A stretch of DNA of 64,000 nt from Cyclobacterium plantarum (GTDB lineage: Bacteria > Bacteroidota > Bacteroidia > Cytophagales > Cyclobacteriaceae). Below are positions 46,088 to 57,922 of this stretch, in pieces. The position numbers were made by a program, and so were the translations under genes. Numbering within the stretch: the stretch's first letter is position 1; each line of letters begins with the position of its first letter. The notes under the pieces are model-generated. The model was given only the letters and a program-made list of their open reading frames with translations, searched no databases and was not told the DNA's origin. The stretch lies in NCBI RefSeq assembly GCF_011290685.1, contig NZ_JAANYN010000005.1:186001-250000 (forward strand), read 5' to 3'.

Positions 46088-47044
46088 ATGGGAGTATTTG
46101 GTTTTTTTTCCAGCGAGAAAAAAGAAAGTTTAGATAAAGGACTGGAGAAGTCCAGCAAAAATCTCTTTTCCAAGTTAGGGAAAGCCATAGTAGGCAAGTC
46201 CAAAGTGGATGATGATATCCTGGATGAATTGGAAGAGATCCTGATCACCTCAGATGTAGGTGTGGATACCACGATCAAGATCATCCGGCGCATCGAAGCG
46301 CGGGTGGAGCGGGAGAAATACATCAACACTTCCGAGCTGGATCTTTTGTTGCGGGAAGAAGTGGCGGGATTGCTGGAGGAGAACAACACCCTTGATCTGG
46401 ACGATTTTGATCTTCCAGAAGGAAAAAAGCCCTATGTGATCATGGTGGTGGGCGTAAACGGGGTGGGCAAGACCACCACCATAGGAAAACTCGCCCACCA
46501 ATTCAAGCAGGCCGGAAAGTCAGTGGTGCTGGGGGCGGCCGACACCTTCCGGGCGGCTGCTGTGGACCAGCTCATCCTTTGGGGAGAGCGGGTGGATGTG
46601 CCGGTTATCTCTCATGGCATGAACACCGACCCTGCTTCGGTAGCCTTTGATACGGTAAAAAAGGCCGTGGAAATGAAGGCCGATGTGGTGATTGTGGATA
46701 CGGCCGGTCGGCTGCATACCAAGGTCAACCTGATGAACGAACTGACCAAGATCAAGCGGGTGATGCAGAAATTTATCCCCGAGGCACCCCATGAGATCTT
46801 GCTGGTATTGGATGGCTCTACCGGACAGAATGCCTTTATACAGGCCAAAGAATTTACCAAAGCCACCGAAATCAGTGCCCTGGCCATCACCAAGCTGGAT
46901 GGGACGGCCAAAGGAGGCGTGGTCATCGGCATTTCGGATCAATTCAAGATTCCGGTAAAGTACATCGGAGTGGGAGAGAAGATGACCGATTTGCAGGTCT
47001 TTGACCGAAGGGAATTTGTGGATTCCTTGTTTAAGAAGAAGTGA
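46088..47044 (+). CDS. ftsY: signal recognition particle receptor FtsY
   Basis: SRP receptor GTPase that brings ribosome-nascent chain complexes to the membrane. The 318 residues form only the NG part: an N domain (about 15-100), then the G domain with GVNGVGKTTTIGKLA (P-loop), DTFRAAA, VDTAGRL and TKLDGTAKGG. The long acidic A domain of E. coli FtsY is absent, as usual in Bacteroidota. The gene lies just after the ribosomal block and its stop is 18 bp before the first copy of the 94-bp repeat. Confidence 0.95.
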   Translation: MGVFGFFSSEKKESLDKGLEKSSKNLFSKLGKAIVGKSKVDDDILDELEEILITSDVGVDTTIKIIRRIEARVEREKYINTSELDLLLREEVAGLLEENNTLDLDDFDLPEGKKPYVIMVVGVNGVGKTTTIGKLAHQFKQAGKSVVLGAADTFRAAAVDQLILWGERVDVPVISHGMNTDPASVAFDTVKKAVEMKADVVIVDTAGRLHTKVNLMNELTKIKRVMQKFIPEAPHEILLVLDGSTGQNAFIQAKEFTKATEISALAITKLDGTAKGGVVIGISDQFKIPVKYIGVGEKMTDLQVFDRREFVDSLFKKK

Positions 47045-47061
47045 GGTTAGGGAAACTAAAA

Positions 47062-47386
47062 AAACCTTCTAGGTCCGAAAGACCTCAAAGGTTATAGATA
47101 TTGACCTTTGGGTTTTCCCCAACCCCGAAGGTCTTTTCTGGAACGTGTACGAAAGAAACCTTCGAGGTCTCAAAGACCTCAAAGGTTATGGATATTGACC
47201 TTTGGGGTTTTCCGAACCCCGAAGGTCTTTCCTGGAACGTGTACGTTTAAAACCTTCGAGGTCTCAAAGACCTCAAAGGTTTGACTACATTGACCTTTGG
47301 GGTTTTCCGAACCCCGAAGGTCTTTTCTGGAACGTTTACGAAAGAAACCATCGAGGTCTTAAAGACCTCAAAAGTTATACCTATCC
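47062..47386. repeat. tandem array of a 94-bp palindromic repeat (three copies plus a partial)
   Basis: Units begin AAACCTTCGAGGTC at 47062, 47156, 47250 and 47345 (period 94-95 bp). Each carries two dyads: GAGGTCT/AGACCTC and GACCTTTGGGGTT/AACCCCGAAGGTC, joined by a less conserved TGGAACGTGTACGAA segment. The last copy runs into the end of the alpha/beta hydrolase gene, whose final codons and TGA it covers. Open frames through the array are artefacts of the repeat. Confidence 0.9.
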
Positions 47387-48510
47387 CTTTTATCATAAAG
47401 CAGCCCGGCTTCCCGAAGGGATTGGTAAACGCCGATTTTTTCCTGATTATCCTCAAGTAAAAAGGAGCGGATAAGCTCCCCCTGCAATCCGGTAGCCCTC
47501 AATTTCCCCAAAGCATGTCCATCCCGTAGCAGCATAAGGCTGGACTGGGGGTAGAACTCCGCCAATACATCGTAACAATACCTGGATAGCAGTTTGTCAT
47601 GGACAGCGCCCACGATCAGTACCTTTCCTTCGTACAGCCTGCCTTTGTCGTAATCCACTCCATGCACCGAAAAAGAAGCTTGCTCCAATTCCTTCCAGAT
47701 GGGCTGGCTTTCCTGTTTCATCCAGGCTGCCGCAATGGAAGGAGGCTGATCGTTCAGCCGGTTTGCCACCAAATTATAACTGTGCTCAAACAGCCGTACT
47801 TTTAGTGCCACATCATCTTCCCTATTTTCCCATAGGCCCGGCACCAAAAATCCCCATTGTAAAAAGGCATAGAAAGGAAAATCATCGGTATCACCCGTAT
47901 CCGGACAAAGCCTTTCGGCATATGCATGCCATAAATAGCCGAACCAAAACCGGTTGGCCTGCGCTTCCGGGCAGGGGGCCGGGTCCCGGAAGTTCAGGTT
48001 TTTTTGAAGGTCAAGAAGTAGGGGGTTAAAGGAAATCAGGGAACTGACTTTTTCGGGATACAGGCTCAGGTAATAATGCAGGTAGGCGGCAGCACCGGAA
48101 AAGCCCACCAAATGCACCGGCTGATCTCCGGGTAAGGCTTTCCGGACCCTTTCCAGGTCCCGGACATGCTGGTCCACGTTCGGTAGCTGGTAGGCTTTGG
48201 ACCAGTCCGTTTGCCCGCTGATATGGATGGTTGTCAGCAGGACTTCGGACTGATGGCGCCCTTTGATTTGCACCAGGTTAAATTCATCCGCCAGATCCCG
48301 GAGATCCATACTTTGCTGAAAATAGTTGTCCAGTGGATCATCCAGAAGCAGAATGGTTTCCTTTTGGTCCTGATAGGGTTGGGAAAGGGTGTAGCTGATG
48401 GTTATTTGCTTGCCGCGGGGCTCCCGGTGGTCCAGGGGCACGGATAGGGTTTCCGTCAGAACAGGGGGAAAAAGGTAAAAGTTGGTTAGTATCAGGAATA
48501 ATCCGGTCAA
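47368..48510 (-). CDS. alpha/beta-hydrolase fold protein
   Basis: A 380-residue protein with an N-terminal hydrophobic stretch (about 1-16, possibly a signal anchor) and an alpha/beta-hydrolase core. The nucleophile elbow is VGFSGAAAYLHYYL (G-x-S-x-G); a GAVHDKLLSRY strand and LLRDGHALGKLRA supply plausible Asp and His positions. Such serine hydrolases often cut peptide or ester bonds; the substrate is not readable. The final residues and stop codon lie in a repeat copy, so the original C-terminus may have been changed by repeat insertion. Confidence 0.78.
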   Translation of the reverse strand: MTGLFLILTNFYLFPPVLTETLSVPLDHREPRGKQITISYTLSQPYQDQKETILLLDDPLDNYFQQSMDLRDLADEFNLVQIKGRHQSEVLLTTIHISGQTDWSKAYQLPNVDQHVRDLERVRKALPGDQPVHLVGFSGAAAYLHYYLSLYPEKVSSLISFNPLLLDLQKNLNFRDPAPCPEAQANRFWFGYLWHAYAERLCPDTGDTDDFPFYAFLQWGFLVPGLWENREDDVALKVRLFEHSYNLVANRLNDQPPSIAAAWMKQESQPIWKELEQASFSVHGVDYDKGRLYEGKVLIVGAVHDKLLSRYCYDVLAEFYPQSSLMLLRDGHALGKLRATGLQGELIRSFLLEDNQEKIGVYQSLREAGLLYDKRDRYNF

Positions 48511-48544
48511 ATTGGCCTATCAATAAATTTCATTTACAATTAAC

Positions 48545-48881
48545 TCAATCCTGTAAATATTTTTGAATTTCTTCTTGCAGTTTTGGTAGGTGGTTCACCA
48601 CAATTCCCCAGATTATCACATCGTCAACTTTAATCATATCCATGTATTACCCAATTCCTAGTATCGACTATTCTTTTTGCATTCTCAATTTGCAAGTCTG
48701 GGTCTTGCTTCAATGCTCTGTTTATTGCTTCACCAATAATTTCTATTTCTCTTTCTATAGCTCTACGTAAAAGCTTGTTGTTCAAATATTCTGTAAAGTC
48801 AAGGTCATTGCCCAAATAGTCAAAAATTGAGTTTATGGAAACATTCACGTCATAAAGATTTTTTTTTATTTCATGCTTCAT
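48545..48881 (-). pseudogene. hepT: HepT-like toxin (DUF86) with a one-base frameshift
   Basis: The first 83 codons (48881 down to 48633) encode a HepT/DUF86 RNase with the R-x4-H-x-Y motif intact (RNWVIHGYD). A TAA follows at once (48630-48632). Skipping one base there continues in another frame as KVDDVIIWGIVVNHLPK and about 15 more residues to a stop at 48545, which matches the normal HepT C-terminus. So the gene carries a single-nucleotide insertion, either a real inactivation or a sequencing error. HepT toxins are minimal HEPN nucleases that are tamed by the MntA partner directly upstream. Confidence 0.8.
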
Positions 48882-49200
48882 AAATCAGGACTTTATTCTT
48901 GTTTACACTTTCAATAAAGTAGGGATTTGATAAGGAACGTTCGGTAATTATATCTATTTCCCGATTGAAAAGATTTCTCAATGCATATTGCAATTGGAAA
49001 TAATTCTCAGAATATTCTTCAGGTGATATTTTGTCGTCAAATGATATCAAGAAGTCAATATCACTATTCCCTCTCAACTTATCTGAAGCCACGGCAGAGC
49101 CAAAGGCATAAAGTCTTTTGATTTTTAGTCTTTCGCAGATATTCTTAAGCTCTTCTTTTCGTTGCTCAATTAATGCGTGCATTTTATTGTTTTTATTCAA
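48871..49200 (-). CDS. mntA: MntA-like antitoxin nucleotidyltransferase
   Basis: A 109-residue minimal nucleotidyltransferase. The catalytic pattern is GSAVASDKLRGNSDIDFLISF: the G-S pair followed by D-x-D. MntA-type antitoxins AMPylate the tyrosine of the HepT motif to block its RNase. It overlaps the hepT start by 11 bp, fitting the usual MntA-HepT order. An in-frame Met at 49182 is an alternative start (residue 7). Confidence 0.85.
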   Translation of the reverse strand: MNKNNKMHALIEQRKEELKNICERLKIKRLYAFGSAVASDKLRGNSDIDFLISFDDKISPEEYSENYFQLQYALRNLFNREIDIITERSLSNPYFIESVNKNKVLIYEA

Positions 49201-49256
49201 ATCTAATCAATTTTCCGCAATTACCTGCAGGTAAAAACTTGGCGATAACTACCTGG

Positions 49257-49397
49257 TTAAAGCCAATAACCTAACCGTTCTCTCATAATGGCTGTCAACT
49301 TCGCAACCACCTCGCTGTCCTTCAAAATGCATTTCTCAAAGGTGTCAAGAAGCCTACCCTGATAGCATTCCACGTTTTTTACCCGGCCTTTTGTCAT
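49257..49397 (-). pseudogene. short unrecognised coding-like fragment
   Basis: A 46-codon open frame (MTKGRVKNVECYQGRLLDTF then EKCILKDSEVV and so on) with protein-like composition but no recognised family, followed by a stop. It may be the leftover end of a lost gene, since the next 700 bp also hold remnants. Low support. Confidence 0.3.
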
Positions 49398-49429
49398 CCA
49401 AAAATTTCTCTAAATTTCCGGAAATGGGA

Positions 49430-49648
49430 TTAGGATGTTTTCTGAATGGCCTTTTTGGGTGAGGTACGTTGAATGAGTTCCTTTTTGATGCTGGTCCATT
49501 TGGATTTGGATACCCGCAGACAAAGATCATTTTGTAACATCATCTCTCTTTCCTTAGGTAAAAAAGATTGGATTAAATTAACATTGGCAAGGCAGTTCCG
49601 GTTTATTCTGATGGAGTCATCCGGCAAATGCTCTTCCATCCTTTTCAA
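49430..49648 (-). pseudogene. LytTR DNA-binding domain remnant
   Basis: 72 codons resembling the C-terminal part of a LytTR domain: MKRMEEHLPDDSIRINRNCL, then a strand LCLRVSKSKWTSIKKEL that fits the end of the domain. The response-regulator or other N-terminal part and the first LytTR strands are missing. It begins where a thioredoxin remnant ends, so two broken genes are joined here. Probably not functional. Confidence 0.6.
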
Positions 49649-49755
49649 AGAGCAAGTATCCGGGGATAAACGCCAGGCCCAGTTGATCCAGTATAATATA
49701 CTTTTATTGGCTTCATCCCCGGTAAAGGCACTGATCGCAGTCCCAGACTATAATT
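49617..49755 (-). pseudogene. remnant of a TlpA-like thioredoxin C-terminus
   Basis: Read on the minus strand with one frame change, this encodes AISAFTGDEANKSILY then QLGLAFIPGYLLFEKDGRAF, followed by a stop. It is clearly homologous to the C-terminal YQLDVAFIPRYLLFDPKGK of the intact thioredoxin lipoprotein at 50055. It shows that a second, related lipoprotein once lay next to it. It overlaps the LytTR remnant in another frame. Confidence 0.6.
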
Positions 49756-49819
49756 TTAAATCCGCTGAAAATAAATAATTTAGAATTTTGCATTTACTCA
49801 ATATATTAAGTAAAATATT

Positions 49820-49990
49820 ATGGCGTACCAAAGAACAGAAAAAGCAGGATTGCTGAAACGGCTGAAAGATGAACCCAGGAGATTTATACAGGTCATCTAC
49901 GGACCTCGACAGGTAGGTAAGACCACCTTAGTAAGGCAGATTATGGAAGATCTGGATTTTAATTTTTGCCCAATAGTATCCAGTAAATGA
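49820..49990 (+). pseudogene. N-terminal fragment of a DUF4143-type AAA ATPase
   Basis: 56 codons: MAYQRTEKAGLLKRLKDEPR, then a Walker A GPRQVGKTTLVRQI, breaking off before any further ATPase motif at a TGA. The opening matches the DUF4143-type ATPases (compare the intact one at 61059). Truncated and presumably inactive. Confidence 0.65.
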
Positions 49991-50054
49991 AATATGCGGA
50001 TTTCGGTTGCCTATTCGTTGACTAGGCAGAAGAATTTTAAAACGAATCAAATCC

Positions 50055-51509
50055 CTATCTAAGAAATCCGTCTAAAATTTGCTCGATGTCATCCTGATCC
50101 GGTCCCGGAGCATTTTGGTGAATGAGTTTGCCTTTAGGATCAAAGAGAAGGTACCGGGGGATAAACGCGACATCCAATTGATACAAAAAGCTTGATTCAC
50201 CCAGATTCAGCACGATAAATGAACGGTTTGGGAAGGCTATGCCATGTTTCCGAACCACCTGCTCCCAAAACTTATGGTTTTTATCTACAGAGAGGTGAAT
50301 GACCTCGAGGCTCCGGTCTTCGTTTTGTTCATGCAGGTTCCGCAAAGCAGGGAATGCTTTGATGCAGGGGATGCACCAGGCCGCCCAAAGGTCGACATAC
50401 AGGTAACTGCCCCTTTTCTGATGCAGCAATTCTTCAAAAGACATCAGGTGGTTTCCGAGCCCCATCAATTCCATGTCCGGCCTTTCTTTTTTCAAGGTAT
50501 TGATTCGGGCCTTTAAAAAATCAGCCTGAACTTTATTTTCCAACTGATTTCCATAGCTGTTCAGCCATTTATCGGCTTCCTGAAAAGATAGGCGGGGGAG
50601 GGATTCCTCAAGGAGTTTAAAACGCATACGCTTGCTGAATGGGCTTGGACCTGAAACCAAACTGTCCGGAAGAAGGAGCTCATTTGGATCTTTCGCTTTG
50701 ATTTGTGCCAGCAAAAAATCCGAAAACTCATCAAAATAGACCGTCTGAAGGTATTCGGAACTGTCGGTGATAGATGCCGTAAAGTGATCTAAGGCTCCCC
50801 TTGGGTCAAAAATCCCCTTCTCACCGGAAAAAAAATGAAGGTGGTCCAATTCAAACCGGAGCTTTGCTTTGTAAAAAGAAGCGGTTCTTTCAGCAATCAG
50901 GCCTGTGTTCTTCAGGGAGTCCAGCCAGGATAATTCTTTTTCCCCACTTTCTAGGGCCTTTTTTCTGCTTTTTATTCGTTCTTCACTGAGGTCAACCGGT
51001 GTTGGGGAGTTAAAATTTGCCTGCCACAGGAAATGGAAATCCTGAAGTGGGGTATAGGTGGAATGGTACAATTCACGATTGCGAAGCAGTTCCAGATTGT
51101 CATCGTATACAGATCGTTCGCTGTTTAAGGTTTTTAGCCATGGCCTCCGTTCGTCCAGGCTAATAAATATACTGTCTCCTTTCGCCAGCAGGTAGCTGTA
51201 TCGGGTCTGGCTGTTGTCAGTATACATCAGGTCTACAGCTTTTCTTTCGGTGTCGATGGATAATACCAAATTATTTTCATTTCCGGAGAAATCAATTGTT
51301 ACAGGCATATTGGCGTCATCCAGGTATTTTAAAGTGGCTTTTCGCTCCCTGAGAAAATCCCGAACCAGGCTATCTTTAAGTACCAGGACAATCTCTGCAC
51401 TATTTTCCTGCTCGTCTTGATCCTTCACTTCCTGGTTTCTACCACAAGCGGAGAAAAACAGGACCAGCAGCACAATGAGTACCCATAGTATTGAATTAAT
51501 CCTTCGCAT
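50055..51509 (-). CDS. TlpA-like thioredoxin lipoprotein
   Basis: A 484-residue lipoprotein (signal VLLVLFFSACGR with the lipidated Cys near residue 24). The N-terminal 330 residues form a helical/strand domain of unknown function common in Bacteroidota TlpA lipoproteins; residues about 350-484 form a thioredoxin domain with the redox motif WCIPC and a cis-Pro (AFIPRYLLF). It likely reduces or rearranges disulfides on the outside of the inner membrane or in the periplasm. It overlaps the CarboxypepD_reg gene by 14 bp, and with the cysteine-rich peptide gene upstream it suggests a maturation role (inference). Start chosen at the lipoprotein signal. Confidence 0.85.
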   Translation of the reverse strand: MRRINSILWVLIVLLVLFFSACGRNQEVKDQDEQENSAEIVLVLKDSLVRDFLRERKATLKYLDDANMPVTIDFSGNENNLVLSIDTERKAVDLMYTDNSQTRYSYLLAKGDSIFISLDERRPWLKTLNSERSVYDDNLELLRNRELYHSTYTPLQDFHFLWQANFNSPTPVDLSEERIKSRKKALESGEKELSWLDSLKNTGLIAERTASFYKAKLRFELDHLHFFSGEKGIFDPRGALDHFTASITDSSEYLQTVYFDEFSDFLLAQIKAKDPNELLLPDSLVSGPSPFSKRMRFKLLEESLPRLSFQEADKWLNSYGNQLENKVQADFLKARINTLKKERPDMELMGLGNHLMSFEELLHQKRGSYLYVDLWAAWCIPCIKAFPALRNLHEQNEDRSLEVIHLSVDKNHKFWEQVVRKHGIAFPNRSFIVLNLGESSFLYQLDVAFIPRYLLFDPKGKLIHQNAPGPDQDDIEQILDGFLR

Positions 51510-52764
51510 TTTGTTCAAATTGTTCCAACAGCTTTCCATTTCTTTCCAGGCTATTGATGATCGCGCTATCCAATGGGTGGTTCTTTAGGAATTCGTTATC
51601 TTTCCAAAATCCTTCATCCAAGGGGAATTCGTTTGGTTCAATTTCCTGCTCTCTTTTGAGCAGCTCTCTGGGCCTGATTTTTTTTAAATGATCTGTGTTC
51701 ACCTTATCAAACCAAAGGGTATGGATATCCATCTGGTGAACACCTACATCCCGGTTGATCAGCCTAAGTGACTTCAGCCGGATGATTTCCGGATAGTAGC
51801 GGTCATCCACTTCCCTGAACTTTACATAGACCTGGTGCTCCCCACTTCTATAGCCCAGTTGGTATTCGACAATTGCATGGTTTCGGCCATTTATTTTTAG
51901 GAAATTCCTGCCATCAGGGGGATCATCTGAGCCAAAGGCTATGTGGTAGATGGTATCCGTGCCGATAAACTCCATGCCCAGAAATTGATGATAAACGGGC
52001 AATTCAGGGATCCCCATAAACCGGTATCCGTCCCTGCCAAAGTGGCTTTCAGGAACATAGGCAGTTCTGATGTAATTGGAGGGATAAGTCCCGATAATTG
52101 GATTCAAAGCCCCTACAGGTTCACCCATGGATTCGATCTGATTTCTAATCTTTGCTTTCATGGCTGAGATATAGGGGTCAACTTCGGCATGTTCATCGCT
52201 CTGTCTCAGAGATTCCATTTTTATTTTAGTGCTCTGTACATCTTTTTCATATCCCAGGTCTTCCACCGTTACAACGGCTTCCACCAAATGGGTAAAGTCA
52301 TCATAATTGGTGGAAACTTTGCGGTAAAGACCGCTCAGTTGGTGGCGTTTATTGGGATAATTTTGGGGAATATTGTCTATGGCTTTGGAAATCATTTCTT
52401 CCAGGGAGGTATCTTCAGGCTTTACGATGACTTCTTCCAGGCCAATGACTGCTTGCGCTAATCTGATGCTGTTTCCGGTTGATTTTAACCGGGCCAGGGG
52501 AACTTGTAGCCGTTGGTATCCAGGGTGGTTCACCACCAGGGTATCTTCCTTTAGTACCTCAGGAAATCGACGGGAGAAGTGCCCGGAAGAATTGGAAAGT
52601 CCATTAAATTCCGGATAGTTTTTTAAGAAAAAGTAGACATGGTCCAAGGGCTTGTTTCCTTCGTCTAGTACGCTGCCACTCAGTTGTCCGGTTGGTGAAT
52701 TGGTTTGGGAATACACGATTCCATAAAGGCAGGCAAAAAAAATGGACAGAGATAAAATTTTCAT
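51496..52764 (-). CDS. CarboxypepD_reg-like domain exported protein
   Basis: A 422-residue exported protein: signal peptide about 1-19 (ending YSQ), then a carboxypeptidase-regulatory-like beta-sandwich (about 27-105; GQLSGSVLDEGNKPLDHVYF) as found at the N-terminus of many TonB-dependent receptors, and a longer domain of unknown function (about 110-420). No TonB-barrel is present. Its stop overlaps the start of the thioredoxin lipoprotein, so they are co-translated. It may be a surface or periplasmic protein that works with the peptide cassette. Confidence 0.78.
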   Translation of the reverse strand: MKILSLSIFFACLYGIVYSQTNSPTGQLSGSVLDEGNKPLDHVYFFLKNYPEFNGLSNSSGHFSRRFPEVLKEDTLVVNHPGYQRLQVPLARLKSTGNSIRLAQAVIGLEEVIVKPEDTSLEEMISKAIDNIPQNYPNKRHQLSGLYRKVSTNYDDFTHLVEAVVTVEDLGYEKDVQSTKIKMESLRQSDEHAEVDPYISAMKAKIRNQIESMGEPVGALNPIIGTYPSNYIRTAYVPESHFGRDGYRFMGIPELPVYHQFLGMEFIGTDTIYHIAFGSDDPPDGRNFLKINGRNHAIVEYQLGYRSGEHQVYVKFREVDDRYYPEIIRLKSLRLINRDVGVHQMDIHTLWFDKVNTDHLKKIRPRELLKREQEIEPNEFPLDEGFWKDNEFLKNHPLDSAIINSLERNGKLLEQFEQNAKD

Positions 52765-52867
52765 CTTAGCGAATGCATGTTTTTAACAGAAATTTCCCGC
52801 GTGCAAGTCTGATTGACGCCAGGATCATAGAAAATTAACTTTTTGTGATAAAAATCTGCCCATTAAA

Positions 52868-53173
52868 TTAATTTCGGGTTTGAATCCAGGGCTTCCTAAT
52901 TTTTTGGTCCTGCAGTGCGACCTGTATCAAATATAGCACAAATTTGTTTATTAAAAATTTAATACCAGGCCTGGCACATTTGGTCTTAAATCCAATGGCC
53001 TCTGCCGCCTCGCTAAGTTTGAGCAGGTTGCTTCCGGAGCGGGTGGTTTCCGAATTTTCCCGAATTTCCTGCAGGGAGATCAATTTGCCGTAGTGTTTGG
53101 CAATGATGCGCAGGCAGGTGGGGCCGCAGTTTTTGGCATCGAGTTGTTTGAAGAAAGGGAAAGTGGTTTTCAA
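52868..53173 (-). pseudogene. truncated C39 peptidase (double-Gly leader peptidase of an ABC exporter)
   Basis: 101 codons. The first about 68 match the N-terminal C39 peptidase domain of peptidase-containing ABC exporters: QLDAKNCGPTCLRIIAKHYG, with catalytic Cys16, and a SLQEIRE and AAEAIGFKT continuation. After that the sequence turns into IKFLINKFVLYLIQ, unlike the family, and stops; catalytic His and Asp, the membrane part and the ATPase are all missing. It is the remnant of the exporter that should cleave and export the double-Gly peptide upstream. Confidence 0.8.
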
Positions 53174-53237
53174 AAATTTTTAAATAATAGGTTAAATTCA
53201 ATTATTTTAAAGAGGGATTGTCCAATTCACCAATTTA

Positions 53238-54407
53238 TCAATCTTCGATTTTCAGCCCCACCCGAAATAACCGGAAATAATCCTTTTCTACTTCATCATC
53301 TGGTTCTTCCATCAACCATAGTTCTCCATTGCGAAGAACCATGGAACTGGCTATTAATCCTTTTGATTCAAAATCATTTAACCTGGTTCCTGACGAATCA
53401 AAAATGGCAATTCGATTTGGATATTTTTCTCGCATCCTCCCCCAAAACACCTTTGCTTCGTATGGTGACTTATTGACAAAAGCCTCCTCTATGTCCATTC
53501 TTTCATAACCAGGAAAATAGTTGACAATAAAGTATTTAGAGAACTTTTTTATGTTACGTATCCTTCCTGAAGTTCTTGCTTGGCCAAAAAATCTCACATC
53601 GTCGGAAAAATTTTCAGCACCTTCAAAAAACCTGAAATCAGGCAAATCAAGTGGAATGCTGGAAACTAAAGAATGGGAGGCATCGATTTCGAAAACGTAA
53701 ATGGTTGGTTCCAATCCAAACACGACATAGATCAAGTTATCGGTTACAGTAAAGACGGGGTCCCAGGCATTGCTGAAAAAATATTTTCCACTCCGAAAAA
53801 TGCTCGTTTCAGGAAAATAAATAATCGGTTCATTCTCTCCGGTTTTCGGATCCAGCCATATTAGCGGACAATGCTCTTCGTAAAAACGGTCCTTGCTATT
53901 AGAAGCAGATCGAGGTGATGGATTAACGTACAAATACTGACCTTGGGATTCTTCCATTCCCCGACCCAATCCGATTCGGGAGAAACTTTGATTGGGGCTT
54001 TCACTATGTTTCACCAACTGTTGCAGCCTTCCGTCAAAATCGTAAGTCAAAAAACCTTTTGTTCCATAGGCAAGAAATGAATTGCTTCCATTAAATTTAA
54101 GAGCGGCTAGAAGATTTCCATAACTATCGGGTACATCCCCCCATTTAGAAAAAGAGTTCAGGATAGCCCCATCAAAATCAGCTATTGTAATTTTTTGGGA
54201 TGTCTCGCTATGCTCCATAAAAATAATTTTTTTTGATGATGGATCAATATCATGGACGGTTGGGACGCCTAAATATTTAATCTTAACACTATCTAGTTTT
54301 TCAAAGATAATGTTCTCCTTGAGCCGAGTGGGTTCAATAAACTCCCTATTTTTCTTCCGTAAATTACAGGAAATCAAAAAAAAGGTTAACAGAATAATGT
54401 ATTTCAT
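53238..54407 (-). CDS. DUF4221-like six-bladed beta-propeller lipoprotein
   Basis: A 389-residue lipoprotein (signal ILLTFFLISCNL, Cys near residue 14). The rest has the repeated strand pattern of a propeller (IHDIDPSS, FDGAILNSF, FDIDASHS, and so on), like the DUF4221/6-bladed propeller proteins that occur near exported peptides and TlpA proteins in Bacteroidota. There is no catalytic motif. It lies right after the peptide gene and before the C39 fragment, in the same direction. Its function may be binding or sensing of the peptide; this is a guess. Confidence 0.78.
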   Translation of the reverse strand: MKYIILLTFFLISCNLRKKNREFIEPTRLKENIIFEKLDSVKIKYLGVPTVHDIDPSSKKIIFMEHSETSQKITIADFDGAILNSFSKWGDVPDSYGNLLAALKFNGSNSFLAYGTKGFLTYDFDGRLQQLVKHSESPNQSFSRIGLGRGMEESQGQYLYVNPSPRSASNSKDRFYEEHCPLIWLDPKTGENEPIIYFPETSIFRSGKYFFSNAWDPVFTVTDNLIYVVFGLEPTIYVFEIDASHSLVSSIPLDLPDFRFFEGAENFSDDVRFFGQARTSGRIRNIKKFSKYFIVNYFPGYERMDIEEAFVNKSPYEAKVFWGRMREKYPNRIAIFDSSGTRLNDFESKGLIASSMVLRNGELWLMEEPDDEVEKDYFRLFRVGLKIED

Positions 54408-54481
54408 CAGGTCAATTGAGATTTAAAATAGAAAATTAGCTACCCCAACAGAGGCAGCCAATTGAAGTTAGTCAAATTTTT

Positions 54482-54730
54482 TCAACCACAATAGAAGGTG
54501 GTGCTACAACTATCACAACACCAATATGCCATTTCAGGGGGGTAACCTTGTGTCTGAAATTCGGCTTCACTTCGTGAGACGTTACATTCGCCATACCATC
54601 CAGTTCCATCGTTGTAAGTATATCCACAAGTTCCGCTACCTCCAGAACCCCCATAAATGCCCGCCAATTGGCTACGTTGCAGCACATCCTCTGCTGCCAG
54701 CTTTAGTTTTTCTAAATTTAATTTTTTCAT
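54482..54730 (-). CDS. double-Gly leader precursor of a six-cysteine exported peptide
   Basis: An 82-residue precursor. Residues 1-28 form a leader (MKKLNLEKLKLAAEDVLQRS, then QLAGIYGG) with the spaced Leu pattern and terminal GG of Bacteroidota natural-product precursors (GG-leader type). Cleavage after Gly28 gives a 54-residue core rich in Gly, Ser and Tyr with exactly six Cys (GTCGY, GECNV, WCCDSC, FYCG), an even number fitting three disulfides. It heads the minus-strand run of DUF4221, C39 fragment, CarboxypepD_reg and thioredoxin genes. Product activity is unknown; it could be a bacteriocin, a signal or a surface peptide. Confidence 0.75.
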   Translation of the reverse strand: MKKLNLEKLKLAAEDVLQRSQLAGIYGGSGGSGTCGYTYNDGTGWYGECNVSRSEAEFQTQGYPPEMAYWCCDSCSTTFYCG

Positions 54731-55369
54731 TTTTCTTTTGATTAATGAATTTTATTGTTTTCCCGGACCAGCTAAGGACACCCGGGAATTATGCCCATTG
54801 ATCGCGATAGAATTTCTCTATATACCTACTTATAGACATTTATTTCCTTGAGGTCTGCAATGCGGTATTCCTTTGGTAAAGCGAATCTTCAGCAATTCAA
54901 GGATTTTACCGGAGCTGTGGAAACAATTATTCATGCGGTTCAAACAGTTTATTCGTAGGTAGATTAACAGGAATGTAGGAATCTATATATGTTTTTGCTC
55001 TTATTACTTCCCAATCTAATGGATAAAATCAAAAAATATAAGTGAATAATAGTATTTCCCGTGAACTGACCTGTTTTTCCCGTGAACGGGCAGTTTTATC
55101 CTGTGAAGGAAATGATTGTCCGGAATGGTGTGATGGTTCCATGATGTGATAGTTTGATGCTGTGCATTCCTTTGGCTTTTTATCACCTGTAGGGTGTTAA
55201 AAAATTAGCGACTTTTAGATAGTGGTTGAATTTACTTTTTAGGAATTGTGGTAGGTAATAAAAATGGTTTTGTTGGTCTGATTGGCTTGTAAGGCTGGTT
55301 TAAAACGCTCGTTTAAACGATCATAAAAATAAATTACTATCTTTATGGGGGCTTAATCTTTCAGCATGT
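54731..55369. other. 640-bp region upstream of the peptide gene with short tandem repeats
   Basis: No confident gene is seen; it probably contains the promoter of the peptide operon. Between 55055 and 55120 three imperfect copies of about 22 bp (TTCCCGTGAACTGACCTG, TTCCCGTGAACGGGCAG and TCCTGTGAAGGA) follow each other. A 32-codon plus-strand frame at 54860-54958 is too short to support. Around 55136-55160 begins a low-complexity run of GATG words. Confidence 0.4.
55056..55120. repeat. short imperfect tandem repeat, about 22 bp per unit
   Basis: Units TTCCCGTGAACTGACCTG, TTCCCGTGAACGGGCAG and TCCTGTGAAGGA with T-rich spacers; not long enough to be a known element. Confidence 0.5.
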
Positions 55370-55582: not shown

Positions 55583-55911
55583 ATCATTTTTTCTTATTTC
55601 CGGCTTTGATCCTAATTTTAAGTAGTAATCGACATAAAAAATTTGGGGATGATTTTTTCTAAGGCTCAAAGCCACTTCTTACAATTAAACAATTAACCGA
55701 TTAACCAATTAAACCTATAAACCCTTAACCATCTCCCTGGCTACCGATAATAAGTCCAATCACAGAAATTTAGTTCTGGTCAAACCTAAATGGTCCAGGC
55801 CCCTTAACTCTTAACCTGTTGGATTCCATTGAAAATTACCTTGATATTTTTAAATAATCTCAAATCTTCCCTATTTTTAGTAGTAAAAATAACGGGATGC
55901 AGCCACTTACA
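55583..55911. other. intergenic region with a word-like repeat
   Basis: About 310 bp without a gene. At 55681-55715 it repeats AATTAA/AACCAATTAA words (AATTAAACAATTAACCGATTAACCAATTAAAC), a type of low-complexity sequence often found between Bacteroidota genes. Confidence 0.4.
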
Positions 55912-56349
55912 ATGAAAACATACAAGGCCAAAAAAGGACGCCTGATGCAGGGTATACTGCTCGCCATGTTGGTATTGCCACTGGCATACGGGTTTTTGGG
56001 TACCAAACCGTGGAAGGAAAAGTTGCGAAGGATCATCCCCCTGACCGCTCCGGCCTTATTGATTATCTGGCCCTATCTTGACACCCGGTATTGGGTCCTG
56101 GGTCATACCTTTTACTACAAGTCAGGCTATATCAAGGGAGAAATTGACATAGGTAGCATCCGGACCATCCTTAAAGGCAAAACCCGCTGGGTGGGGGTGA
56201 AGCCTGCACTGGCTACCGGAGGCTTGATCGTAAAATACAAGCGGTATGACGATGTGTACATTGCCCCGGAAGACAGCGAATCCCTGATTGCCGACCTGCT
56301 CACCATCAACCCCGCCATCCAGGTGATCCCACCTGGAAAAGATACCTAA
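55912..56349 (+). CDS. PH-like domain membrane protein
   Basis: A 145-residue protein with two hydrophobic segments near the N-terminus (about 12-31 and 42-58) followed by a bacterial pleckstrin-homology-like domain (about 60-140): YWVLGHTFYYKSGYIKGEID, then IRTILKGKTRW and a strand LIVKYKRYDDVYIAPE. Such small bPH proteins are found widely and are not characterised. The ATG at 55912 is preferred; an ATG at 55897 adds five residues. No partner is visible. Confidence 0.75.
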   Translation: MKTYKAKKGRLMQGILLAMLVLPLAYGFLGTKPWKEKLRRIIPLTAPALLIIWPYLDTRYWVLGHTFYYKSGYIKGEIDIGSIRTILKGKTRWVGVKPALATGGLIVKYKRYDDVYIAPEDSESLIADLLTINPAIQVIPPGKDT

Positions 56350-56412
56350 GGGGCATTAAAAAGTGCTGAGCATATCGAAATCCAGGAATGTACTTGCAAA
56401 TTTTGAAAAAAT

Positions 56413-56438
56413 AAAATCCCCCTTTCTCAAAGGGGGGG
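56413..56438. repeat. CCCCCTTT...AAAGGGGG palindrome, copy 1
   Basis: AAATCCCCCTTT followed by CTC and AAAGGGGGG, a short hairpin of a family widespread in bacterial intergenic regions. Confidence 0.6.
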
Positions 56439-56583
56439 TAGTTACAAATACCCGAAAGGTCTGGAGATTCATTATTGCTTGTAAATTGAATTGACGTTTA
56501 CCCAATTTATGGTGAATTGGTATCATTGAAACGGCCTGAAAAATTTCAGCGGTAATACCGTGGCCGCAAATAGGCATCTGTCC

Positions 56584-56614
56584 AAATCCCCCTTATCAAG
56601 GGGGCGGGGGATTT
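56584..56614. repeat. CCCCCTT...AAGGGGG palindrome, copy 2
   Basis: AAATCCCCCTTATCAAGGGGG followed by CGGGGGATTT, the end of the same family. Confidence 0.6.
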
Positions 56615-56710
56615 ATTTACTCACAACTAAGTAAACAACCACTCAAATTACCCCCAACAATAGCAATTAAAAAGGCTTGCTTTTTTAAACCATTAGTTTT
56701 ACTTTTAAAC

Positions 56711-57874
56711 ATGTCGAATCTTCGCCTAACCCTAATACCACTACTGGCAACTTGCCTGCTGTCCTGCTCCCGCTCCCAAAAGGAAACTACAGATTCCCCC
56801 AGCTATTCCCTTCAATTGGTGGACTCCGTTCGCATTGACTATATGGGCAGCCTGGAGCTAAAAGATTACGACCCGGAAACCAACCTCTTCCTGGCTTATA
56901 ACCAACAAAAAAAGGAAGTCTTGATTTTTGATACCTCAGGAGCTATCCAACATACTTTTATCCTGCAAGACGACGGCCCGGAGGCCATCAGCGGCTATGG
57001 GCTGAACCCCAGATTCTCGGCAGGAAACATCTGCATCTTTGGGGATAAAATCTACACCCTGAGCCGGCAGGGGAAGGTGTTGAACCGGACGGAGATACCC
57101 TATCCCTATTTCTGGATTGTGGGGGGCGCGCATATAGCAGCCTCTTCGCTGGGGGATAAATTGCTGTACTACAAACCGGAACCGGCAGAAGAAGGGCAGG
57201 ACCGGCAGGCAGCCTACCAACGCATGCTGGACGGAGGACCGATGATGGAGGTGCTGGATACGATCAGTGGTGAATACGATCCGACCATGAATTTTCCAGA
57301 GACGGATGCCTTTGAAGAGGGGTTCTTTTACGGGTATCCTACGCCACTTATTCAAAATAGCGGCTCCCAATGGTTCCTTTCGGTCACCAATGCCCTGGAG
57401 TTTCATGTTTACAGCGAAAGGGAACAACAATTGCTCTTTGAGCGGACGGTAAAAATTCCGGCGAAGAACGCCTACATGGACCAGCCGGTGCCATTGGAGC
57501 AAATGGATACCTTCTTTGAAAAAAACGGACTGGTTTACCGTATCCCACAGATCCACCGGTTTTTACCCCTGAAGGATCATTTTATCGCCTTTTACAGCAA
57601 GGGTGTTTCTCCCGAAACGAAAGCGGCCTATGATGTGTCGGATCCTGCGCAGCGGCGGGAATTGGTCTACTCCTTTCCCATGGAATTTGCCGTTTTTGAT
57701 TCGGAGTTTGGCCTGTGCGCAGTGGACCTGTCCATTCCGAAAAACATGGTTCCTTTTACAGCCCTGGTGGACAAAGAAGGCCAAATCGTGGCACTTAAAG
57801 ACCAGGAACAGGCAGGTGTGGAAGAGGATTTTCATACCTTGTTTCAATACAGCTTGGATTTTGGACAAGAGTAA
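56711..57874 (+). CDS. DUF4221-family propeller lipoprotein
   Basis: A 387-residue lipoprotein (signal LLATCLLSCSRS, Cys near residue 19), then a six-bladed propeller-like protein with strands such as YDPETNLFLAYNQQ, FDTSGAIQHTF and TMNFPETDAFEEG. The last 30 residues (ALVDKEGQIVALKDQEQ then VEEDFHTLFQY) are shared with the protein at 58604, so both are paralogues. No enzyme motif. It is followed by a toxin-antitoxin pair and then the paralogue. Confidence 0.82.
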   Translation: MSNLRLTLIPLLATCLLSCSRSQKETTDSPSYSLQLVDSVRIDYMGSLELKDYDPETNLFLAYNQQKKEVLIFDTSGAIQHTFILQDDGPEAISGYGLNPRFSAGNICIFGDKIYTLSRQGKVLNRTEIPYPYFWIVGGAHIAASSLGDKLLYYKPEPAEEGQDRQAAYQRMLDGGPMMEVLDTISGEYDPTMNFPETDAFEEGFFYGYPTPLIQNSGSQWFLSVTNALEFHVYSEREQQLLFERTVKIPAKNAYMDQPVPLEQMDTFFEKNGLVYRIPQIHRFLPLKDHFIAFYSKGVSPETKAAYDVSDPAQRRELVYSFPMEFAVFDSEFGLCAVDLSIPKNMVPFTALVDKEGQIVALKDQEQAGVEEDFHTLFQYSLDFGQE

Positions 57875-57922
57875 ATTGTTTGCGTCAAAATTTGTACCTT
57901 TATAAAGTAAAACCTTACCAGA

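Follow-up and report, generated by a model that had tools for sequence, protein, structure and literature searches.

A putative displaced peptide/partner cassette in Cyclobacterium plantarum

Five consecutive minus-strand genes occupy positions 50055-54730 of a 64,000-nucleotide (nt) stretch of the Cyclobacterium plantarum genome (contig NZ_JAANYN010000005.1; the whole stretch is hereafter called the window). These genes encode a small precursor peptide, a beta-propeller with a lipobox-like N-terminus, a truncated C39 peptidase-like sequence, a CarboxypepD_reg-like protein, and a TlpA-like thioredoxin lipoprotein. The original prediction joined all five in one set for the maturation and export of a disulfide-rich peptide. 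Do the five genes form a single pathway, and if not, what is the row made of? Comparison with related genomes suggests that the row is not one pathway but combines two displaced modules from a larger Cyclobacteriaceae system. Related bacteria appear to swap a peptide gene together with an envelope-partner gene by recombination, as toxin and immunity genes are swapped elsewhere. We slightly favour viewing the window as a displaced, partly decayed cassette of Cyclobacteriaceae polymorphic peptide toxins with cognate immunity proteins.

Two candidate modules in the window

All five open reading frames (ORFs) lie on the minus strand as predicted. The precursor gene (54482-54730) encodes 82 residues, and it bears out the proposed double-glycine leader (54647-54730) and 54-residue, six-cysteine core (54485-54646). 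Its 28-residue leader reads MKKLNLEKLKLAAEDVLQRSQLAGIYGG. In an alignment of 25 precursors the leader columns are largely conserved, with a hydrophobic pattern, an invariant G27, and a glycine at position 28 in at least 90% of rows. The leader/core comparison revealed a constant N-terminus followed by an exchangeable C-terminus.

Directly downstream lies a 389-residue beta-propeller with a lipobox-like N-terminus (53238-54407, minus strand). The DUF4221 label given to this protein stands by fold and fails by Pfam. No Pfam or NCBIfam family matches it at E≤1, and PF13970 (DUF4221) is matched (4e-29) by a related partner class and not by the window propeller. Its predicted structure (mean predicted local distance difference test score, pLDDT, 82.2) has as its best Foldseek match in the PDB 3s9j, a member of the DUF4221 family (E 9.9e-13, TM-score 0.64/0.68, root-mean-square deviation 5.3). 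Relatives of the propeller were found at E≤1e-30 in 33 of 148 genomes, and precursor relatives also occur in other genomes, which argues that the window genes are not chance ORFs. The near-constant leader, variable six-cysteine core, and propeller partner make up what appears to be the first module.

The last two genes of the row tell a different story. They encode the CarboxypepD_reg-like protein (51496-52764, minus strand, 422 residues) and the TlpA-like thioredoxin lipoprotein (50055-51539, minus strand, 494 residues). The thioredoxin label was confirmed by a Thioredoxin_8 match above its cut-off; the CarboxypepD_reg label has a CarbopepD_reg_2 match behind it that falls below cut-off (26.5 versus 32.2 bits). 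A structure model of the CarboxypepD_reg-like protein had a mean pLDDT of 39.7 and was not used. This gene belongs to another partner cluster, whose members follow precursors with cores like YCxxxxxxRSCN (L178 6607, L188 5035, L212 7125; L-codes denote sequence stretches, of which L003, L004, and L014 come from the window's genome, and G-codes denote genomes). A TlpA-like gene follows the CarboxypepD_reg gene in L178, L188, L197, and L212. Because these homologues follow precursors of another core class, they probably form a second module, the partner of a different peptide class, whose own precursor is missing in the window.

The idea of a single five-gene pathway was rejected on the same grounds. 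The predicted co-occurrence of the genes holds in part. The small gene and the propeller recur together as eight pairs in seven genomes, including the window's, all within one partner cluster (cluster 3), while the CarboxypepD_reg and TlpA genes do not form a fixed set with them.

Within the window's family, the leader family is present in at least 49 of the 390 genomes, the window's own included, and in at least 19 of 84 genera; both figures are lower bounds because up to 15 candidates were scored per genome. Carriers include Cecembia, Rhodonellum, Nitritalea, Aquiflexum, Mariniradius, Mongoliibacter, and Algoriphagus; Algoriphagus and Cecembia belong to the Cyclobacteriaceae. In a sample of the phylum, 8 of 395 genomes have a match; two belong to the same family, and in the remaining six no match is better than E 7e-8. 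Within its own genome, the window precursor is the sole member of the leader family found.

Intact operons of relatives (e.g. L092 and L180) encode, in order, a C39-VKOR-Trx protein, the precursor, the partner, a C39-type ATP-binding cassette (C39-ABC) exporter of 733 residues, HlyD, and a DUF6734 protein. No DUF6734 match was obtained at some loci with an exporter and HlyD (e.g. L193 and L201). Full-length exporters number 23 in 61 stretches (tblastn), and 20 of these stand immediately after a partner whose precursor was detected. These operons, and the exporter remnant in the window, uphold the prediction of a double-glycine, cysteine-rich peptide from a C39-ABC export system that is broken here. 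Beside one exporter of the cognate family we observed a LanC-like gene (Pfam accession PF05147, L091 3901-4971).

The prediction had also pointed to a second exporter elsewhere in the genome. A scan of the whole genome with PF03412 gave two sites: the remnant in the window and an intact C39-ABC exporter on contig C36 (L003 9985-12147). The latter is a poor fit, being approximately 30% identical to the cognate exporter (its HlyD approximately 23%) and lying near a different double-glycine peptide. The genome scan thus found no dedicated cognate exporter; the exporter that stands beside the precursor in relatives is represented by the remnant and this distant homologue. The same scan gave no evident C39-VKOR-Trx protein, since relatives of that protein score well with PF03412 and the genome has only these two sites. 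The C36 region (L003 8796-12779) itself encodes HlyD, the exporter, a regulator-like gene, and a 64-residue double-glycine peptide, and looks like a separate small bacteriocin-like cluster.

Core and partner covary between two conserved arms

We identified 118 leader ORFs in the 61 stretches, 103 of which have a same-strand gene of at least 150 residues within 400 nt downstream. Pairs with a partner of at least 300 residues and a core of at least 20 residues were kept, giving 95 pairs in 41 genomes. Cores are rich in cysteine (11.8% of residues, versus 0.54% in partners). The number of cysteines is even in 84 of the 95 cores, with exactly six in 57 and four in 22. Partners include DUF4221- and DUF5128-type propellers and thioredoxin-bearing proteins, and others have no Pfam match.

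Between genomes, the more alike two partners are, the more alike are their cores (Pearson 0.722, Spearman 0.316, 95 pairs). Shuffling partners within genomes gave a mean of 0.145 (standard deviation 0.045), and none of 2000 shuffles reached 0.722. Leader similarity is uncorrelated with either the partner (0.058) or the core (0.098). The correlation still contains a few artefacts: cluster 11 (two precursors paired with a downstream C39-VKOR-Trx gene), cluster 14 (one precursor paired with a VKOR gene), and the 400-residue ‘partner’ at L081 11347, another ORF that lies between the precursor and the true partner. The cognate partner lies directly downstream of the precursor and moves with its variable part. 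Because co-inheritance of neighbours could explain the correlation, it shows only that core and partner appear to move as one unit, independently of the leader.

The borders of this unit are sharp at the DNA level. Between same-genome cassettes with different partners, the leader DNA has an identity of 0.71-0.84, and the sequence immediately beyond it 0.27-0.38 (99 comparisons). At the other end, identity is 0.25-0.37 before the exporter start codon and 0.60-0.89 over the first 180 nt of the gene, from which it falls slowly to 0.59 by 300 nt (48 comparisons). The window has the same two arms. Its 5′ arm (54637-55118, minus strand, blastn) consists of leader-coding DNA and the upstream region and is common to other cassettes of the genus. 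Among blastn alignments of at least 80 nt to precursors of the genus, 11 of 13 stop at the very beginning of the core (54636-54645), and the two exceptions end at 54677 (L197) and 54703 (L212). At the exporter remnant, four of five alignments stop no more than 31 nt from its start (53173-53204); a cassette of the same class gives the fifth, which continues past it. Core and partner thus covary between two conserved arms. Recombination between these arms would explain the pattern.

The exporter remnant is the gene originally labelled a truncated C39 peptidase. Its truncation is confirmed: the 101-residue ORF (52868-53173, minus strand, TTG start) matches positions 2-79 of the 133 positions of PF03412. 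Its first 68 codons (52970-53173, minus strand) are 76% identical to residues 1-68 of the exporter, and tblastn found no exporter homology in the remainder of the ORF. The catalytic histidine of C39 presumably lies beyond residue 68. The window stub has six and eight non-synonymous differences from two intact copies, which differ from each other by one. An active stand-alone peptidase was rejected because of this excess and the end of homology at residue 68.

What had seemed a lost peptidase is instead a recurrent 5′ stub of the exporter gene, found after partner-like genes. A tblastn search with the full exporter identified 44 such 5′-end segments, which together with the 23 full copies are spread over 28 stretches. 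In 43 of the 44, the segment starts within 300 nt of the end of some same-strand gene, and 27 have a partner with a detected precursor immediately before them. The count includes the window's own stub (in L004), two segments from interrupted near-full-length copies (L077 q1-323 and L194 q1-110), and two segments in L190 that belong to one stub. C39-VKOR-Trx gene ends likewise precede precursors (L077, L084). The truncated ORF in the window looks like a recombination scar, and such stubs should not be read as enzymes. Directly before exporter stubs in L173 (~9760), L176 (~2900), and L192 (~5250) we also observed a protein of approximately 920 residues that is CarboxypepD_reg-like by eye and is possibly a further partner class.

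A syntenic locus illustrates how cassettes differ between species. Two genus-syntenic flanks border the window cassettes, on the left at 46088-48446 and on the right at 55683-57877 (no strand assigned to either). The left flank and the right flank (here 55700-57874) are present on one contig in the window's genome, G123, G153, and G195, with approximately 7, 12, 15, and 29 kb between them. G123 has partner clusters 7 and 2 at this locus, G153 has cluster 2 (a near-copy of that in G123), and G195 has clusters 5, 0, and 10; all differ from the window's. G195 and the window have 4.7 kb of DNA in common at 94% identity (48524-53204). This segment ends 31 nt before the stub start, past which G195 carries a partner-only gene and a pair, both of other classes. 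Flank searches gave no empty site for comparison, and G211, G224, G259, and G266 have no good right-flank match.

Could tandem duplication followed by ordinary divergence have produced these units, the exporter copies decaying and no cassettes being exchanged? Some units do stand in tandem, as in L173 with its six exporter stubs. This origin is nonetheless very improbable, as homology stops sharply at the leader/core boundary and resumes at the exporter start, the same core and partner class recurs across different genera, and one syntenic locus holds different cassettes in different species.

Other features of the locus deserve mention. A repeat at 47057-47380 has units recurring at approximately 94 nt (from shifted alignments) and copies scattered through genomes of the genus, and a short dispersed repeat at 56513-56621 has many partial copies in them. 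On the minus strand, 48630-49200 contains a small gene pair that we take to resemble a HEPN protein and an MNT-type nucleotidyltransferase. A 56-residue fragment at 49820-49990 resembles the start of an ATP-binding protein and has a 397-residue relative at L091 17053-18246, near a cassette island.

Partners without precursors and the candidate role of the system

We next consider partner genes that stand alone. Using a rule of at least 30% identity over 200 aligned residues at E≤1e-15, with a leader ORF sought within 700 nt upstream, we identified 95 partner-like genes with a leader ORF, 59 without, and four that are undecidable at an edge. (The 95 equals the number of pairs in the correlation by chance.) The count leaves out matches below 30%, those to the VKOR gene at L191 16632-18086, and those to the L207 11543 partner; it supersedes a looser count of 107 without versus 98 with. 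Sixteen stretches contain two or more partner-only genes. In the stretches L014, L080, L088, and L093-L096, nhmmer found no leader remnants beside partner-only genes at E≤0.05. Elsewhere, the precursor ahead of a full-length partner is broken, either by a frame shift in the leader or shortly past it (L187, L178) or by a stop codon inside the leader (L206).

A propeller with 48% or more identity to that of the window occurs in 11 genomes, and five of these have no leader match at E≤0.01. In a tree of 22 window-class partners, paired and partner-only genes are mixed, with at least five changes, all forced by well-supported branches. This mixing suggests that the state changed repeatedly; 49 of 500 label shuffles were as low as five changes. 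A CarboxypepD_reg gene in L197 is 94% identical to the window's and also lacks a detected precursor. Between the window and L197, the ratio of non-synonymous to synonymous change (dN/dS) is 0.41 for CarboxypepD_reg and 0.24 for TlpA (point estimates, with no test).

Propeller paralogues also occur on contig C37 of the window's genome. One is 51% identical to the window propeller, and three propeller genes form a tandem row without a precursor; none was found when the repeats of this array were examined. These repeats (L014 7300-16000, C37:27299-35999) comprise up to ten direct copies, reach 300 nt or more, contain the palindrome-like motif GGGCTTTAGCCCA, and sit between the three propeller genes.

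Covarying core and partner classes would also be expected if the partner were a dedicated biogenesis factor that helps its own peptide to fold, or carries or presents it at the envelope, the role put forward in the original prediction. Thioredoxin-bearing partners could isomerize disulfides (L181 11337-12785 and the window TlpA protein). We regard this role as distinctly unlikely given the 59 partner genes without a detected precursor ORF, the tandem partner-only arrays of different classes, the low dN/dS of precursor-less partner genes, and the five of 11 genomes that have a close propeller and no leader match.

Partner-only genes would be less surprising if the exported core were a signal received by the partner, at the cell surface or in the periplasm, with partner-only strains acting as listeners. 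This reading, which we consider unlikely, accounts for covariation equally, and propellers are common ligand binders. A weak point against it is that the scanned partners have no evident signalling domain, although neighbouring regulators, kinases, and TonB genes were not systematically searched.

Retained partners, broken precursors, and precursor-less arrays together liken these loci to those of polymorphic toxins, with their displaced cassettes and polyimmunity loci, the reading that we favour for the window. The cleavage, export, and oxidation steps of such a system are predicted from known protein families. The constant leader would be cut off after its double glycine by the C39 domain of the exporter, which together with HlyD would carry the core out of the cell, and the disulfides of the core would be made by the C39-VKOR-Trx protein. 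The core may then act on neighbouring cells, being toxic to close relatives, and the envelope partner would protect by neutralizing that one core class. Recombination at the leader DNA and at the 5′ end of the exporter gene would bring in new core and partner pairs, and those displaced would stay behind with stubs or as partner-only genes. In its own genome, the window pair has probably become a relic or is kept for protection alone. We give about an even chance to the complete scheme of a constant double-glycine leader, an exchangeable disulfide-rich core, matched immunity by propeller or CarboxypepD_reg/TlpA proteins, swapping through leader DNA and the start of the exporter gene, stubs left as scars, and immunity acquired in the form of partner-only arrays.

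Several observations weigh against this scheme. First, the partners are large (~330-480 residues) and of unlike kinds, and immunity proteins are mostly small. A thioredoxin is odd in an immunity module, and a maturation role would suit it equally. Second, a lipobox-like N-terminus was detected, by a crude pattern, in only 50 of 95 partners. Third, joint inheritance as one recombining block would yield the correlation without any binding. Fourth, in 16 of the 44 cases the gene ahead of the exporter segment is something other than the partner of a detected precursor, and in one further case no gene precedes the segment. Finally, 24 of the 59 partner-only genes come from L004, L014, L080, L088, and L093-L096, and the choice of some stretches for a propeller match biases the partner-only ratio upward. 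Distant propellers exist without an adjoining peptide gene, such as the one in the right flank of the window (56711-57874, plus strand), and some partner-only genes may thus never have had a precursor.

If the toxin and immunity reading is true, the polymorphic logic of large secreted proteins extends to peptides of approximately 50 residues with a cleavable leader. The system would then provide approximately ten new cysteine-rich peptide classes (partner clusters 0-10), together with their candidate genes for resistance, and would suggest a possible role for propeller families without an assigned function (DUF4221, DUF5128). Each core is predicted to be active on strains without the matching partner.

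Comparison with known systems

The larger peptide/partner system apparently has no published description. We found none in the open-licence literature among the matches listed (titles and abstract openings), and no open-licence papers on NVEALA, DUF4221, or DUF6734; being limited to open-licence papers, these negatives are no proof of novelty. Class II microcins and other double-glycine bacteriocins likewise have a double-glycine leader, a C39-ABC exporter, and HlyD. The present system differs from them in its partner of ~330-480 residues, its multi-cassette arrays, and its fused C39-VKOR-Trx protein. The leaders also weakly resemble TIGR04149, an NCBIfam family of leaders of radical SAM-modified RiPPs (ribosomally synthesized and post-translationally modified peptides), with matches at E≤1 for 23 of 25 aligned precursors (the best at 1.2e-6). 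For the window precursor the score is 14.5 bits, under the cut-off of 25, and no radical SAM gene is present among the window's five genes.

The closest tested peptides are the bacteroidetocins (class IIf), which are described as cysteine-containing Bacteroidota peptides with a double-glycine leader, whose gene cluster includes a thiol oxidoreductase and an ABC exporter of the C39 type (PMC6671954). Their leaders are given there as 15-16 residues and their mature peptides as 35-50 residues (PMC6671954). The two tested mature peptides have 42 residues and four cysteines, and no immunity gene is reported to have been found (PMC6671954). The peptides described here have a 28-residue leader, a 54-residue six-cysteine core in the window, and a matched partner gene, and in leader length, core length, and cysteine number they fall outside class IIf as described there.

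Polymorphic toxin systems (contact-dependent inhibition, or CDI, Rhs, and relatives) are described as combining an exchangeable C-terminal part with a neighbour gene and leaving displaced cassettes and ‘polyimmunity loci’ (PMC3482391). The likeness lies in a constant N-terminal part, a C-terminal part that is swapped with its neighbour gene, displaced cassettes, and partner-only loci. The constant part here is a 28-residue double-glycine leader, whereas theirs is a large secreted protein. The candidate system described here further differs in its C39-ABC and HlyD exporter, its cysteine-rich variable peptide, and its second arm, the 5′ end of the downstream exporter gene.

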